NCBI RefSeq assembly: GCF_003946445.1
Contig: NZ_RHOF01000002.1
Location: 1 to 64,000 of the forward strand
DNA from: Loigolactobacillus jiayinensis
GTDB taxonomy: Bacteria; Bacillota; Bacilli; Lactobacillales; Lactobacillaceae
Length of the DNA stretch: 64,000 bases
Direction: 5' to 3'
The translations under genes and the position numbers were made by a program. The notes under the pieces were generated by a model. The model did not search any database, was not told the DNA's origin, and was given only the letters and a program-made list of their open reading frames with translations. Of this stretch, positions 3,222 through 54,984 are shown piece after piece (position 1 is the stretch's first letter; each line of letters opens with the position of its first letter).

Positions 3222-3489
3222 TTAGGTCAAAAAAAGCACCCAGTGAGAGCTAAACTCTCAAAGGGCGCATTTGCGCGGTACCACCTTTATTTATGTATTC
3301 AAACCGAATACATCTCAACAGTTTTTAAACTGTTGCTGCGATAAGGGGCACCCACCCATGTCAGTACTGACATTAAACTCAAAGCTTACTTTCAATTTAC
3401 TTAATTACCGCGTCACATCGACCCGCGGCTCGCTTAAAATTAAAATAAATCTACTTTTCTTATCAAAGTTTTAATCTGTTTTTCATTTT
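3222..3489 (-). promoter_or_regulatory. T-box riboswitch leader
   Basis: Read on the minus strand, the leader has the conserved T-box sequence AGGTGGTACCGCG at 3286-3274, upstream of an intrinsic terminator (stem halves 3263-3268 and 3236-3241 plus an inner GAGAG/CTCTC, then seven U). The 5' part resembles Stem I, with AAAAGTAG and a distal GATGTGA loop. The Specifier side reads GAAAGTAAGCTTTGAG; depending on register the codon is GUA (Val) or AGU (Ser), and I cannot decide which. Binding of uncharged tRNA to this element switches transcription on, so the lyase/MFS operon should respond to starvation for one amino acid. Confidence 0.85.
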
Positions 3490-26633: not shown

Positions 26634-26751
26634 AAAAAAACCAGCGTATGGGCTTACGCTGGAAAAAGGAGTTGGGTTTTCATCACTTTGGGGAAATGAT
26701 GAAAAATTAAGTTTTGGGTTAGGGATTTAGGTGGGGTCCTTCATCTCTATG
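26634..26751 (-). ncRNA. candidate C-rich small RNA, copy 1
   Basis: On the minus strand a TATAGT box (26763-26758) would start transcription near 26751; the transcript ends at the hairpin CCAGCGTA/TACGCTGG followed by a run of U at about 26634. It carries C-rich single-stranded motifs (GGACCCCACC, AUCCCUAACCC, AACCCAACUCC) and a hairpin with a CCCCA loop. See copy 3 for the structural evidence. Confidence 0.7.
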
Positions 26752-26851
26752 TAGACTACTATACCCACAGAATATGAATAATGCGTGATGAAATCAGTGT
26801 ATTAAATTGAAAAAATGCTTATAGAAAAGTAAAGCTTCACATTGAAGCAAA

Positions 26852-26968
26852 TAAAAAACCAGCGTATGGGCTTACGCTGGAAAAGGAGTTGGGTTCTCAT
26901 CACTTTGGGGAAATGATGAAAAATTAAGTTTTGGGTTAGGGATTTAGGTGGGGTCCTTCATCTCTATG
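26852..26968 (-). ncRNA. candidate C-rich small RNA, copy 2
   Basis: Same organisation as copy 1: TATAGT at 26980-26975, predicted start near 26968, intrinsic terminator ending near 26852. It differs from copy 1 by a base in the central stem (U-G instead of U-A pair) and one fewer A after the terminator stem. Confidence 0.7.
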
Positions 26969-27068
26969 TAGACTACTATACCCACAGAATATGAATAATG
27001 CGTGATGAAATCAGTGTATTAAATTGAAAAAATGCTTATAGAAAAGTAAAGCTTCACGTTGAAACAAA

Positions 27069-27185
27069 TAAAAAACCAGCGTATGGGCTTACGCTGGAAA
27101 AGGAGTTGGGTTCTCATCACTTTGGGGAAATGATGAAAAATTAAGTTTTGGGTTAGGGATTTAGGTGGGGTCCTTCATCTCTATG
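27069..27185 (-). ncRNA. candidate C-rich small RNA, copy 3
   Basis: TATAGT lies at 27197-27192 and the predicted start is near 27185. The central hairpin (27136-27128 with 27122-27114) pairs nine bases, UCAUCAUUU with AAGUGAUGA, and displays a CCCCA loop. Differences between copies keep pairing only when the minus strand is read (A-U versus G-U), whereas the plus strand would have C-A mismatches. The 3' part contains ACUCCUUU, complementary to Shine-Dalgarno sequences, then a terminator with a C-rich AGCCCA loop. These are hallmarks of sRNAs that block ribosome binding sites. Confidence 0.72.
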
Positions 27186-27285
27186 TAGACTACTATACCC
27201 ACAGAATATGAATAATGCGTGATGAAATCAGTGTATTAAATTGAAAAAATGCTTATAGAAAAGTAAAGCTTCACATTGAAGCAAA

Positions 27286-27402
27286 TAAAAAACCAGCGTA
27301 TGGGCTTACGCTGGAAAAGGAGTTGGGTTTTCATCATTTTGGGGAAATAATGAAAAATTAAGTTTTGGGTTAGGGAATCAGGTGGGGTCCTTCATCTCTA
27401 TA
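27286..27402 (-). ncRNA. candidate C-rich small RNA, copy 4 (diverged)
   Basis: TATAGT lies at 27414-27409, predicted start 27402, terminator ending near 27286. The copy has about a dozen substitutions, but the C-rich motifs, the CCCC loop, both stems and the TATAGT box are intact. Similarity to the other copies stops at about -43 relative to the predicted start, which marks the likely limit of a functional promoter. Confidence 0.7.
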
Positions 27403-27577
27403 TGGACTACTATACCCACAGAATATGAATAATACGTGACGAAATAACAAGATTAATTTGAAAATTACTAAATAATAACAAATACGCAAACGTAATCGCC
27501 AGTGTGCATATTTCTTTCTTTACATCGTTGATCTCGCTTAAACTTGGATTAGAACAACGATTAAGGAGGTTCCAACT

Positions 27578-44361: not shown

Positions 44362-46317
44362 TCATTTGAATTTTGCTAAGTCAGTCGCTGAATAAACATA
44401 TGGTACGTGCGCTGTTTGCGGTACTTGATCCCAAGGCACTGGATAGCCGGCACCATGTGCACAGAAAACGGAACCTGGCGCATTAGCCACATCAGCGACT
44501 GGATCATATTGCGCCGCGGCGACCACTTTTGCTTCATCGTGGCACGGCCGATAGCCATCAATGATGCACTCCAACTGCCCTTGGCCATGGGTATAGGCGT
44601 AAACCGTCTGCGCGTAACCCTGCATTTCAGAAACTGGCGCGGTCCCAGTTAAGCGTGCGCCAGTAGCTGTGGTGACTGGTGCATCAAAATGACCACTCAT
44701 CTGTTGAATATCCGTCATTGCACGCCCAATTTGTTCTTGACCAACTTCTAAACGAAATTGATACCACGGCTCCAATAACTGGCAACCAGCCTGCGCTTTA
44801 AGTGTCATCAATCCTTGCCGCAATGCCCGCCAAGTTGCTTCACGAAAGTCACCGCCGACCGTGTGGACATTGCTAGCTTTACCACCAACTAACGTGATCC
44901 GCATATCCGTAATTGGCGCGCCGACCAACACGCCAAGCTGTTCTTTGGCCTGTAAATTTGCCAACACTTGATGCTGCCAATTACGACCTAATACATCGAT
45001 TGGACAGTCAGCAGCGAAGGTCAAGCCACTCCCGCGCGGCGCTGGTTGCAGTAACAAGTGCACCTCAGCATAATGTCGCAGCGGTTCAAAATGGCCGACA
45101 CCTTCCACTGCTTGTGTGATCGTTTCTTTGTACAAAATACTGCCGACGCCAAAAGTAACATCCAAATTAAACCGCGTTGCTAGTAATTGCTGCAAAATTT
45201 CCAACTGAACAGTTCCCATAAGCTGAACGCGAATTTCCTGTAACTCCTTGGACCAAACAACGTGTAGCTGCGGATCCTCGTCTTCCAATTGTCGCAAAGC
45301 CGTTAAACAAGTGTGCAGCTCATTGCCGTCAGGATCAAGCGTATAATTAAGCACCGGCTGAATCAGCGGTGTCGCCGCAGCCACAGCCTTGCCTAGTCCT
45401 TGACCAGGATGTGTACCCGTTAATCCAGGAATCGCACAAACTTCACCAGCAGAAATTTCTGAACTAATCGTAAATTTAGTGCCATTATAAATGCGCAATT
45501 GATTAACTTTTTGGTCATCCAACAACACATCTTTCGTCCGCAAAATACCTCCAGTTACCCGTAGCCAAGTTAATCGTTCACCTTTTTCATCATAAGAAAT
45601 TTTAAAAACTTGTGCCCCAAAATCAGACTGATAGGTAGTTGCCACTGTCCAGCGTTCTAAGCCATTTAGTAATGTAGCCACACCATCCAACTTCAGTGCC
45701 GCGCCAAAATAGCAGGGAAAAATTTTGCGCCGCTGAATCATTTGCCGTACTGTATCATCGGTTATAGTACCAGTTGCCAAAAAATCCGCTAGTACAGTAT
45801 CATCATTTAAAGCAATTTCCTCATAGGCGTCAGCAATTTGCTCGGTATCAAAGGCCAGACAACCTTCCGCAAGCTGACTTTGCAATTGATCAAGTACCTG
45901 CTGCCGCTCAGTACCGGGTGCATCCATTTTATTCACGAAAATAAATGTCGGCACGTGATATCGCTCAAGTAAGCGCCACAACGTCCGCGTATAACCTTGC
46001 ACACCATCCAGCGCTGAAACCACCAGCACCGCATAATCGAGCACGCTTAACACCTGTTCCGTTTGACTAGCAAAATCCACGTGTCCCGGTGTATCCAGCA
46101 GCGTTAAATCAAGCGCCTGATATTGCAAACTTGCTTGGTGTGAAAAAATCGTGATGCCGCGCTGCTTTTCTAAATCATCAGGATCAAGAAAAGCATCCCC
46201 ATTATCAACTCGCCCGAGCTGCCGCAGTTCACCTGAACGATAAAGTAATGCTTCAGATAATGTCGTTTTTCCCGCATCAACATGGGCGATAATACCTGCT
46301 ACAATGTGCTTTGTCAT
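44362..46317 (-). CDS. TetM-like ribosomal protection GTPase (EF-G paralogue)
   Basis: A 651-residue translational GTPase of the TetM/TetO/EF-G family. It has the P loop AHVDAGKTTL, G2 RGIT, G3 DTPGH and G4 NKMD, followed by beta-barrel and EF-G domains III-V. Length and the DNGDAFLDPDDLEKQRGIT switch region resemble the chromosomal TetM-like proteins of lactobacilli more than the mobile tet(M)/tet(W) genes. Whether it gives tetracycline resistance cannot be told. No mobile element flanks it. GGAGTGG precedes the ATG. Confidence 0.85.
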   Translation of the reverse strand: MTKHIVAGIIAHVDAGKTTLSEALLYRSGELRQLGRVDNGDAFLDPDDLEKQRGITIFSHQASLQYQALDLTLLDTPGHVDFASQTEQVLSVLDYAVLVVSALDGVQGYTRTLWRLLERYHVPTFIFVNKMDAPGTERQQVLDQLQSQLAEGCLAFDTEQIADAYEEIALNDDTVLADFLATGTITDDTVRQMIQRRKIFPCYFGAALKLDGVATLLNGLERWTVATTYQSDFGAQVFKISYDEKGERLTWLRVTGGILRTKDVLLDDQKVNQLRIYNGTKFTISSEISAGEVCAIPGLTGTHPGQGLGKAVAAATPLIQPVLNYTLDPDGNELHTCLTALRQLEDEDPQLHVVWSKELQEIRVQLMGTVQLEILQQLLATRFNLDVTFGVGSILYKETITQAVEGVGHFEPLRHYAEVHLLLQPAPRGSGLTFAADCPIDVLGRNWQHQVLANLQAKEQLGVLVGAPITDMRITLVGGKASNVHTVGGDFREATWRALRQGLMTLKAQAGCQLLEPWYQFRLEVGQEQIGRAMTDIQQMSGHFDAPVTTATGARLTGTAPVSEMQGYAQTVYAYTHGQGQLECIIDGYRPCHDEAKVVAAAQYDPVADVANAPGSVFCAHGAGYPVPWDQVPQTAHVPYVYSATDLAKFK

Positions 46318-47768: not shown

Positions 47769-49031
47769 CTATTCAGTTACGTTTAATTGGGTCGTGTTTT
47801 CGCTTAAGGTAATTGTTCCTGACTTCTTGGTGCCACCACGGTAATAGCTAACCGCTACCTTATCGCCAACACTGTGATTATATAACTCAGTCCGTAGATC
47901 AGCACTGTTAGTGACTTTCTTACCACCAAGTGATGTAATCACATCGTACTTCTTTAACCCAGCATTAGCTGCTGGTGAACTACTTTTAACTGACATCAGC
48001 ACCACACCACCGGTAACGCTAGCAGGTAGATCTAAAATTGATTTCTGCTGTGTTGCAGAAATATTGGATAGATCAGCCATCGAAACACCTAACGCTGGTC
48101 GAACGATTTTACCATTGCTGACCAACTGGTCGATGATTTTAACAACTTCATTACTTGGGATGGCAAAGCCCATACCTTCAACTGTTGCCGTGCTGGAACT
48201 GCCAGAGCTACTTAATTTCATTGAATTGATCCCAATAACCTGCCCTTGAATATTGAGCAAAGGACCACCAGAATTACCAGAGTTAATTGCTGCATCCGTC
48301 TGGATAACCGTTGCTTCACCGGTTTCTTGCCCAGTGGTTTCATCAGTAACTGCTACTGTCCGATTCTTCGCGGAAATAATTCCTTGAGTAACTGATGTAG
48401 CGTACTCAGAACCTAATGGTGACCCAATTGCAATTGCTGGTTCGCCAACTTTAATACTGTCGGAATTACCGAAACTGGCTACCTGTGTCACTTTATCCGC
48501 GCTAATACTCAAAACGGCCAAATCAGTAACTGAGTCAGTCCCAACTTTTTTAGCGGTTAACTTCGTACCGTCGCTAAGAATAACTTCTAGCTTGGCCGAG
48601 CCGGTAACCACGTGATTATTCGTTACGATGTAGGCTTTACCGTCTGCTTTTTTATAAATCACGCCGGAGCCTTCACTATATTCTTCAAGGCTACTGCTAC
48701 TAGAACTACCTGATGAATCGGATGACGAATCAGAACTACCGCCAAAAAACTCACTTAAGCCACTATCGTCACTACTACTTTGATTTTGTAGGTTAATTAC
48801 CGAAACAACAGCATTCTTTGTATGTTTAAACACATTGGAAACCTGTGAATTAGTGCTCACTTTTACATTGCTGACTTGAGTGGTACCTGCTTTAGTGGTA
48901 TTAACAACGCTACCATTCGAACTACTACCATTGTCCAAAAGGTTAACGCCACCGTAGACTACGCCCCCACCCACAACGGCTGCCACTAGCGCGACAACTG
49001 CAGTCTTAACTAAACTATTTGATTGTTTCAT
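47769..49031 (-). CDS. htrA: HtrA/DegP-type membrane serine protease
   Basis: A 420-residue surface protease. One membrane helix (about 9-30) is followed by a Ser/Gly-rich linker (SSDSSSDSSGSSSSS), a trypsin-like domain with the triad His in TNNHVVTG, Asp in SVTDLAVL and Ser in NSGNSGGPLL, and a C-terminal PDZ domain (AGLKKYDVITSLGG). It degrades misfolded secreted proteins and is often in the WalR or stress regulon. It lies downstream of the walRKHIJ genes after a ~190-base gap with its own TGGAGG site. Confidence 0.95.
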   Translation of the reverse strand: MKQSNSLVKTAVVALVAAVVGGGVVYGGVNLLDNGSSSNGSVVNTTKAGTTQVSNVKVSTNSQVSNVFKHTKNAVVSVINLQNQSSSDDSGLSEFFGGSSDSSSDSSGSSSSSSLEEYSEGSGVIYKKADGKAYIVTNNHVVTGSAKLEVILSDGTKLTAKKVGTDSVTDLAVLSISADKVTQVASFGNSDSIKVGEPAIAIGSPLGSEYATSVTQGIISAKNRTVAVTDETTGQETGEATVIQTDAAINSGNSGGPLLNIQGQVIGINSMKLSSSGSSSTATVEGMGFAIPSNEVVKIIDQLVSNGKIVRPALGVSMADLSNISATQQKSILDLPASVTGGVVLMSVKSSSPAANAGLKKYDVITSLGGKKVTNSADLRTELYNHSVGDKVAVSYYRGGTKKSGTITLSENTTQLNVTE

Positions 49032-49219
49032 AACAAACCTCCAGTTTTTTCAGAACTTGCTTATGTTATTAGAATAGCGCAAAATTTTGAAAAATTATTG
49101 AACAAGTTGCGATTAAATCATAATAAATTTAGCCTAAACGCAACTTACTTCCACAGTAATAGTGGCTTATTGCAAAGTGAAATCGGCACGTTTTTTCAAG
49201 CGCAAGCATCCATTTCACC

Positions 49220-54273: not shown

Positions 54274-54984
54274 CTAATCTTGATCAGGATTGCGCAGATA
54301 ATAACCAACACCACGCCGCGTTACTAACCATTCAGGGTGACTTGGGTTATCTTCGATTTTTTCCCGTAAACGACGTACAGTCACGTCCACGGTCCGCACA
54401 TCACCAAAATAATCATAGCCCCACACCGTCTGCAGTAAATGCTCACGGGTCATAACTTGGCCAATGTGTTGGGCTAAATAGTGCAACAACTCAAACTCAC
54501 GGTGAGTCAATTCGATTTTGTCGCCACGCTTAGACACAATATAAGCATCTGGATGGATCGTTAAATCACCAATTTCAATTTCACTGTTTTCATCAGCTTC
54601 ATTTTGCGCACTGTTGATCGTCCCCTGGCGCCGAAGATTAGCCTTGACCCGTGCCACTAGCTCACGATTAGAGAAAGGCTTAGTAACATAATCATCAGCG
54701 CCCATCTCTAGACCCAAGACTTTATCGATTTCTGAGTCCTTGGCCGTCAACATAATAATTGGCATATCATGATCTTTGCGCACTTCACGCGCAACTTCCA
54801 AACCATCAATTTTTGGTAACATGAGATCCAATACAATTAAATCTGGCTTTTCATCATTAACTTTAGCCAACGCTTCCTCGCCATCATAGGCGGTTACCAC
54901 GTCATAGCCTTCCTTGTTCAGATTAAATTTAACGATATCCGAAATCGGTTTTTCGTCATCTACAACTAATATTTTTTTTGCCAT
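54274..54984 (-). CDS. walR: response regulator WalR (OmpR family)
   Basis: A 236-residue regulator. The receiver domain has the acidic pair in VVDDEKP, the phospho-Asp in [14 protein letters not shown] and Lys in [13 protein letters not shown]-terminal winged helix ([25 protein letters not shown] split over the domain; [12 protein letters not shown]) binds TGTWAH-type repeats. It is the first gene of the wal cluster. The ATG at 54984 starts the conserved [16 protein letters not shown] lies 12 bases ahead, and the longer frame is unlikely. Confidence 0.97.

Follow-up and report, generated by a model that had tools for sequence, protein, structure and literature searches.

A tandem array of four candidate small RNA genes in Loigolactobacillus jiayinensis, with C-rich anti-ribosome-binding-site segments and a putative PieR promoter box

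What is encoded by four direct repeats of about 217 bp that stand one behind the other on a contig of Loigolactobacillus jiayinensis? The window analysed here comprises the first 64,000 nucleotides of that contig, which is 153 kb long in a genome of 3.04 Mb. A preliminary description read the repeats as minus-strand genes for C-rich regulatory small RNAs (sRNAs) of a family it did not recognize. The repeats are indeed in register with a period of 217-218 bp (26634-27445), and each of the four minus-strand units contains, in this order, a direct-repeat box, a TATAGT hexamer, the RNA start ATAGAGATGAAGGACCCCACC, a hairpin whose loop is rich in C, the linker AACCCAACUCCUUUU and an intrinsic terminator (Table 1). 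The RNA of each unit is 116-117 nt long, begins with ATAGAGATGAAGG and ends in an 8-bp stem followed by T6. A terminator is present in all four units; six terminator-like sites occur in the array region against 0.7 expected, the two extra ones being weak stems between units.

Table 1. Positions in the window of the parts of the array and of the weak box upstream of htrA.
Feature	Positions	Strand	Scores
sRNA copy 1 (most diverged; probable ancestral unit), 116 nt	27286..27401	-	R1 covariance model 116.2 bits; fold z -6.5
sRNA copy 2	27069..27184	-	R1 119.8 bits; fold z -6.2
sRNA copy 3	26852..26967	-	R1 119.8 bits; fold z -6.2
sRNA copy 4, 117 nt	26634..26750	-	R1 124.5 bits; fold z -7.0
Direct-repeat (putative PieR) box, copy 1	27419..27444	-	PWM 25.2
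Direct-repeat (putative PieR) box, copy 2	27202..27227	-	PWM 24.1
Direct-repeat (putative PieR) box, copy 3	26985..27010	-	PWM 24.1
Direct-repeat (putative PieR) box, copy 4	26768..26793	-	PWM 24.1
-10 element TATAGT, copy 1	27409..27414	-	
-10 element TATAGT, copy 2	27192..27197	-	
-10 element TATAGT, copy 3	26975..26980	-	
-10 element TATAGT, copy 4	26758..26763	-	
Central hairpin with CAU...CCCC (anti-start/anti-SD), copy 1	27328..27356	-	
Central hairpin, copy 2	27111..27139	-	
Central hairpin, copy 3	26894..26922	-	
Central hairpin, copy 4	26677..26705	-	
Terminator stem, copy 1	27293..27314	-	
Terminator stem, copy 2	27076..27097	-	
Terminator stem, copy 3	26859..26880	-	
Terminator stem, copy 4	26641..26662	-	
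Weak box upstream of htrA, same spacing to a TATTCT -10	49084..49103	-	PWM 6.3

Three of the copies are about 99% identical, and copy 1 is 92% identical to the others over 178 bases. The likeness of copy 1 to the rest begins at -43, as the preliminary description had noted, and the direct-repeat box starts at exactly this base. Being the most diverged copy and lying on the promoter-distal side, copy 1 is probably the ancestral unit. The 5′ ends had been placed at 27402, 27185, 26968 and 26751; conservation moves each of them one base inward, to an A at 27401, 27184, 26967 and 26750. Elsewhere in the window, a T-box leader (115.6 bits) is found at 3258-3475 on the minus strand.

Type-1 orthologues of the array RNA occur in four of the seven Loigolactobacillus congeners examined, with one copy each in L. 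rennini, L. zhaoyuanensis and a third congener (G004), and two in L. binensis. Homologous arrays lacking the terminator, the C-rich loops and the pairing had been named beforehand as evidence against sRNA genes; the type-1 orthologues retain terminator, C-rich segments and stem. The gene that follows the orthologous locus is quinone-oxidoreductase-like in three of these species and LytR-CpsA-Psr-like in L. rennini. Since the locus is the same in the relatives, the array represents the amplification, in one lineage, of an old sRNA locus. Downstream of the single sRNA copy of G004, the tblastn match does not include the first 79 codons of the quinone-oxidoreductase-like gene, and unrelated sequence lies in between. 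A longer type-2 form is found in two further congeners (G006 and G007), with two copies in each, and two boxed type-2 sRNAs lie elsewhere in the L. jiayinensis genome (L039:1537-1734 and L042:1537-1746), one of them on the contig of the window at 124.9 kb. The remaining congener, G005, has no DNA match to the array and one doubtful match (L075) to the array covariance model R1.

The same comparison bears on whether the units might be a mobile or selfish repeat, or a gene for a small peptide. Tandem 217-bp repeats could suggest the former, and the window copies contain ATGAAGGACCCCACCTAA, a frame of five codons, which could suggest the latter. Both were rejected, and together they are scarcely credible: the array occupies the identical chromosomal locus in relatives, searches of phage and plasmid collections gave no match to it, and the five-codon frame is lost in the orthologues of two other species, reading ATGTAG in one (L003) and having no ATG at that place in the other (L005).

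Folding favors an RNA gene on the minus strand. For all four copies, none of 200 shuffled sequences folds as well as the minus-strand RNA (z of -6.2 to -7.0). The plus strand, tested for two copies, gives z of -3.7 and -2.6, so that the minus strand is favored while the plus strand is not free of structure. Pairing of the central hairpin is maintained in all four copies, which differ by C-G versus U-G at one pair and U-A versus U-G at another. In the plus strand these U-G pairs would be A-C mismatches, in agreement with the earlier claim that the differences among copies keep pairing only in the minus-strand RNA. Nine type-1 RNAs aligned in a hand-set register extend this pattern, with C-G/U-G/U-A, U-G/U-A/C-G and U-A/C-G at three pairs of the central stem; with the register set by CAU, a hand count finds changes on both sides at 3 of 10 pairs, and none is broken. 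A covariance-model alignment of the type-1 RNAs (A9) gives seven pairs with changes on both sides, an inflated count because A9 places some window copies two columns out of register. RNAalifold run on a plain MAFFT alignment (A4), in which the window copies stand in another register, missed the central hairpin.

The cleanest covariation count comes from 15 relatives in Lactiplantibacillus, identified through model R1 or a pattern search. Among these RNAs 99.4% of 509 cells pair, and 6 of 34 pairs have changed on both sides; this signal was reached by none of 500 shuffles and is lost when the partner is slid. All six two-sided pairs lie within one helix (helix 3), and the core hairpin and the terminator are almost invariant and thus silent on pairing. 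On this comparative evidence, the structure of the RNA is kept by selection. Four Lactiplantibacillus loci (L059, L063, L066 and L069) belong to a second kind of boxed sRNA, with an extra GUGAACGUCCCCCCGC segment.

How would these genes be switched on? The TATAGT element named in the preliminary description is present in each unit, but it does not belong to an ordinary sigma-70 promoter: there is no -35 hexamer, and no sigma-70-like promoter site was found in the array region. The array promoters (TTTCRTCACGNATTATTCATATTCTG) carry a direct repeat, NTCACN-N5-TTCAYA, with a period of 11 bp and at a fixed distance from the -10 element, covering about -43 to -23. The 26-mer box has four matches in the window, where none is expected. 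Aligned across three genera (Loigolactobacillus, Lactiplantibacillus and g12), 29 distinct promoters share a single grammar, in which NTCACN-N5-TTCAYA is followed after 9 nt by a TATRRT-like -10 and after a further 6-7 nt by ATAG, with no gap between box and -10; one additional row of that alignment matches by chance, and its pattern missed five sRNA loci whose boxes are weaker. The units are presumably transcribed.

A weight matrix (PWM) was built from 20 boxes. It also matches coding sequence, with scores of 12-17 inside several pieR genes, and a single score in that range is therefore no proof of a site. A strong match at 46156 (21.8) falls within a GTPase gene and is regarded as fortuitous; the open reading frame that holds it (44362-46317, minus strand) resembles ribosomal-protection proteins by eye. 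Another box-like site (L182), which may likewise be due to chance, precedes the start of a translation-GTPase-like gene by 26 nt.

Among the eight OmpR-family regulator genes of this genome, the box is found in the flanking intergenic stretch of one only (PWM 15.8), the best score at the other seven loci being 11.1. The best NCBIfam model for this regulator is PieR, at 305 bits and thus below the cutoff of 450, which Listeria PieR itself passes with 481 bits. The two proteins are reciprocal best hits with about 57% identity, and the genome therefore has a PieR orthologue. A box also stands upstream of pieR in four Listeriaceae genomes (scores of 18.7, 18.7, 17.2 and 13.1), between pieRS and a divergent gene, which encodes an FtsX-type permease at the one locus tested. 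We infer that this permease gene is lmo1506, the ABC permease gene of the Listeria PieRS regulon; that regulon also comprises prsA1, prsA2, lmo0442, lmo0881 and lmo1505, and the authors call the signal of the system unknown (PMC12234432, available text). The L. jiayinensis system thus resembles PieRS of Listeria in its reciprocal-best response regulator and in the kind of box, which in Listeria stands between pieRS and the divergent gene for an FtsX-type permease. It differs in output: the regulon as named in the available text of that source contains no sRNA (PMC12234432), whereas the genes most often boxed here are those for sRNAs. The region upstream of prsA in this genome has no box (best score 1.3), which ruled out prsA as a conserved boxed target. 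Of the pieR loci looked at in Lactobacillaceae, 15 in number, nine have an upstream box that scores at least 10 and one has a box of 8.7; at the other five the box is weak, missing or beyond the end of the contig. The six low or missing boxes belong to two Lactiplantibacillus genomes (G281, 8.7; G296, 5.7), three g12 genomes and L. rennini, whose contig gives only 282 bp upstream. The window itself encodes, at 54295-54525 on the minus strand, the DNA-binding domain of a WalR/YycF orthologue, about 80% identical to WalR-like proteins of Listeriaceae; no box is found at this locus.

Co-occurrence also ties the box to PieR. A PieR-like regulator is present in 291 of 397 Lactobacillaceae genomes and 29 of 40 genera (E at most 1e-75), and box plus -10 sites, with one mismatch allowed, are found in 282 of the 397 among the matches listed. 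When the matches listed were tallied by hand for each genus, the 8 Loigolactobacillus genomes had 38 sites and the 21 Lactiplantibacillus genomes 82, with 2 in either genus for the reversed pattern that served as control. In the same tally the 11 genera that lack a PieR hit, comprising 55 genomes, had 2 sites (control 12). Genus g23 is split, with 16 sites in 14 PieR-positive and 1 in 11 PieR-negative genomes; 17 genomes of genus g17 that lack a PieR hit have 13 sites (control 3), which may reflect a diverged PieR, another regulator or chance. A covariance-model search of related genomes, as proposed in the preliminary description, was made with R1 and found matches in 37 genomes, 36 of them with PieR; the exception (G182) has a match without a box. 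Besides L075, the doubtful R1 matches are L061 (genus g23, no box, in a genome without a PieR hit) and L065 (genus g6).

The sRNA cluster could be of the same kind and yet be driven by another OmpR-family activator, such as WalR or PhoP, or by a global factor, with the co-occurrence of PieR due to shared ancestry. Several OmpR-family regulators recognize 6-5-6 direct repeats, and direct repeats of the TTCACA type are not unique to PieR among them; the g17 sites and the pieR loci without a box point the same way. WalR and PhoP were nonetheless set aside, as the WalR (L108) and PhoP-like (L109) loci have no box above 4.6. The near absence of sites from the PieR-less genera, the split within g23 and the recurrence of the box at Listeria pieR loci make any other activator unlikely. 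Binding of the box by the PieR orthologue is accordingly the reading adopted below, as a presumption drawn from gene distribution and from the boxes at pieR loci.

The array was compared with known sRNA families. No Rfam family reaches its gathering score over the array, which bears out the impression of an unrecognized family, and no description of these RNAs was found in the literature searched, which took in few subscription papers. Membership in Ref84 (RF02846), an Enterococcus sRNA, was rejected at 31.4-34 bits for all four copies (E of 0.024-0.07) against a gathering score of 52; the literature searched yielded nothing on Ref84. The streptococcal csRNAs of the CiaRH system offer a close parallel, with several sRNAs per genome, anti-SD and anti-AUG (CAU) segments, a C just before the start, htrA within the same regulon, and a 6-5-6 direct repeat that replaces the -35 at 10 nt from the -10, against 9 nt in the array (PMC3091779, available text). 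The csRNA promoters read NTTAAG-N5-TTTAAG, or NTTAAG-N5-WTTAAG (PMC3091779, available text). The CiaR box is absent from the array promoters, which have NTCACN-N5-TTCAYA and a PieR orthologue as putative regulator, and the RNA sequences differ; the array RNAs are thereby set apart from the csRNAs.

The other parallel is LhrC1-5 of Listeria, controlled by the envelope-stress two-component system LisRK, which is likewise tandem and multicopy, has redundant UCCC sites in a loop, a single strand and the terminator loop, and shows a very similar hairpin-linker-terminator order (PMC4132741, available text). The array RNA places its own UCCC-type sites in the hairpin loop (UUUCCCCA), the linker (AACCCAACUCC) and the terminator loop (AAGCCCAU). 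It has an extra C-rich 5′ segment, and its box covers a region closer to the start than the LisR-responsive element, which lies upstream of -53 (PMC4132741, available text). Descent of the repeats from a common ancestor with LhrC, as true members of that family, would explain the order UUUUCAU-C-rich loop-AUGAAAA-UCCCAAACUCCCUUUUU-terminator common to both, and all four copies give full-length, sub-threshold matches to Rfam LhrC (RF00616; 33.0-37.1 bits, E of 0.0008-0.006 in a 901-base search). These scores, and the 39.5 bits of the G004 orthologue (L004), are far under the gathering score of 110, on which membership was rejected, and the box is absent from the three LhrC promoters that were read in the correct orientation. 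Furthermore, in a draw of 395 genomes from the order, LhrC exceeds its cutoff in 28 and at E 0.01 is found in 34 Listeriaceae-coded (f8) genomes and, weakly, in three outside; under strict filters no Lactobacillaceae genome matched at E 0.01. Common descent with LhrC is thus quite improbable. The comparison with LhrC and the csRNAs is apt as an analogy: the array RNAs would work like CiaRH-csRNA or LisRK-LhrC and belong to neither.

What lies downstream of the box is most often sRNA-like. Of 50 box loci read among the matches listed (30 chosen by program, 20 by the authors), 39 have a C-rich stretch and a terminator and no RBS-led open reading frame, six have a gene and five have neither. The sRNA-like rate at controls was 40 in 3000 random positions and 11 in 883 AT-rich TATNNT positions. 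Two of the six boxed protein genes, in two other genomes, are htrA-like. The window has its own htrA (47769-49031), with Trypsin_2 and PDZ domains, whose weak upstream box (Table 1) has two mismatches to the box pattern, and htrA of this genome is tentatively counted as a regulon member. A low-homology operon (L040) has a box with one mismatch, and neither of its proteins matches Pfam at 1e-5.

The boxed RNAs share one short motif, made up of CAU and, 2-8 nt further on, CUCC, UCCC or CCCC; such a segment is complementary to an RBS and start codon (GGAG-N-AUG). The motif is present in 30 of 41 boxed RNA bodies, against a mean of 9.0 and a maximum of 16 after shuffling, although many of the 41 are mutually related and hence not independent. 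The window copies carry it as CAU-N-CCC, uniting anti-SD and anti-AUG segments as csRNAs do. When duplex energies were computed for 53 translation starts of the window, the array RNA showed a preference of 3.45 kcal/mol for the starts over coding sequence from the same genes, compared with about 0.52 kcal/mol (sd 0.97) for shuffled RNAs; absolute energies at the starts were alike (-14.65 for the array RNA, -14.66 shuffled), and only the start-versus-coding contrast is unusual. This preference supports the earlier suggestion of a C-rich RNA aimed at ribosome binding sites. The RNA could instead act mainly by binding a protein or by sponging another RNA, as a C-rich decoy that does not block translation starts. 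The 5′ segment GGACCCCACCUAAUCCCUAACCC, nearly invariant in the type-1 orthologues and longer than a seed requires, would suit such a decoy; the element common across genera is the CAU-N-CUCC anti-RBS motif, however, and not the 5′ segment, so that a decoy appears a slim prospect. Repression of translation initiation is the likely mode of action by analogy, because csRNAs and LhrC share the design and binding of LhrC, with its similar C-rich segments, to its targets has been tested (PMC4132741, available text).

Taken together, the four repeats would be four complete genes for a trans-acting sRNA of about 116 nt, tandem-amplified at one ancestral locus. An OmpR-family response regulator, most likely the PieR orthologue of a PieRS envelope- and secretion-stress system, would switch them on by binding the 11-bp-period direct repeat that stands in the place of the -35 hexamer, with such stress as the presumed inducing signal. 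The RNA would then pair with the Shine-Dalgarno and AUG regions of mRNAs through its 5′ GGACCCCACC/AUCCCUAACCC segments, the CAU-N-CCCC hairpin, CCAACUCCUUUU and the terminator loop, and repress translation of these putative targets, while PieR would raise the expression of other genes, probably including htrA. The tandem copies would raise the dose. We consider this proposal of four PieR-switched sRNA genes, repressing translation through C-rich anti-RBS sites, to be highly probable as a whole.

The array is one locus of a large, family-wide and seemingly undescribed set of boxed sRNAs in lactic acid bacteria. They would be two-component-driven anti-translation-start sRNAs, a known kind, here with another regulator, another box and other RNA sequences. 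We favor, with some reserve, a broader reading in which the main output of the PieRS-type envelope-stress system of Lactobacillaceae is not proteins but fast-evolving anti-translation-start sRNAs together with htrA, as a counterpart of CiaRH-csRNA-htrA and LisRK-LhrC with another regulator and box; with the same reserve, the boxed RNAs, often several per genome, would undergo sequence turnover but retain the promoter grammar and the CAU-N-CUCC motif. The box plus -10 pattern is a simple means of finding such RNAs without sequence similarity. If the reading is true, the PieRS system gains an sRNA arm, and PieR joins CiaR and LisR as the third OmpR-family stress regulator within one order to be paired independently with C-rich anti-RBS sRNAs, which would make convergent rewiring directly testable. 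Food and probiotic lactic acid bacteria, including L. plantarum, would then possess a large and hitherto unrecognized layer of stress-controlled translational repression.
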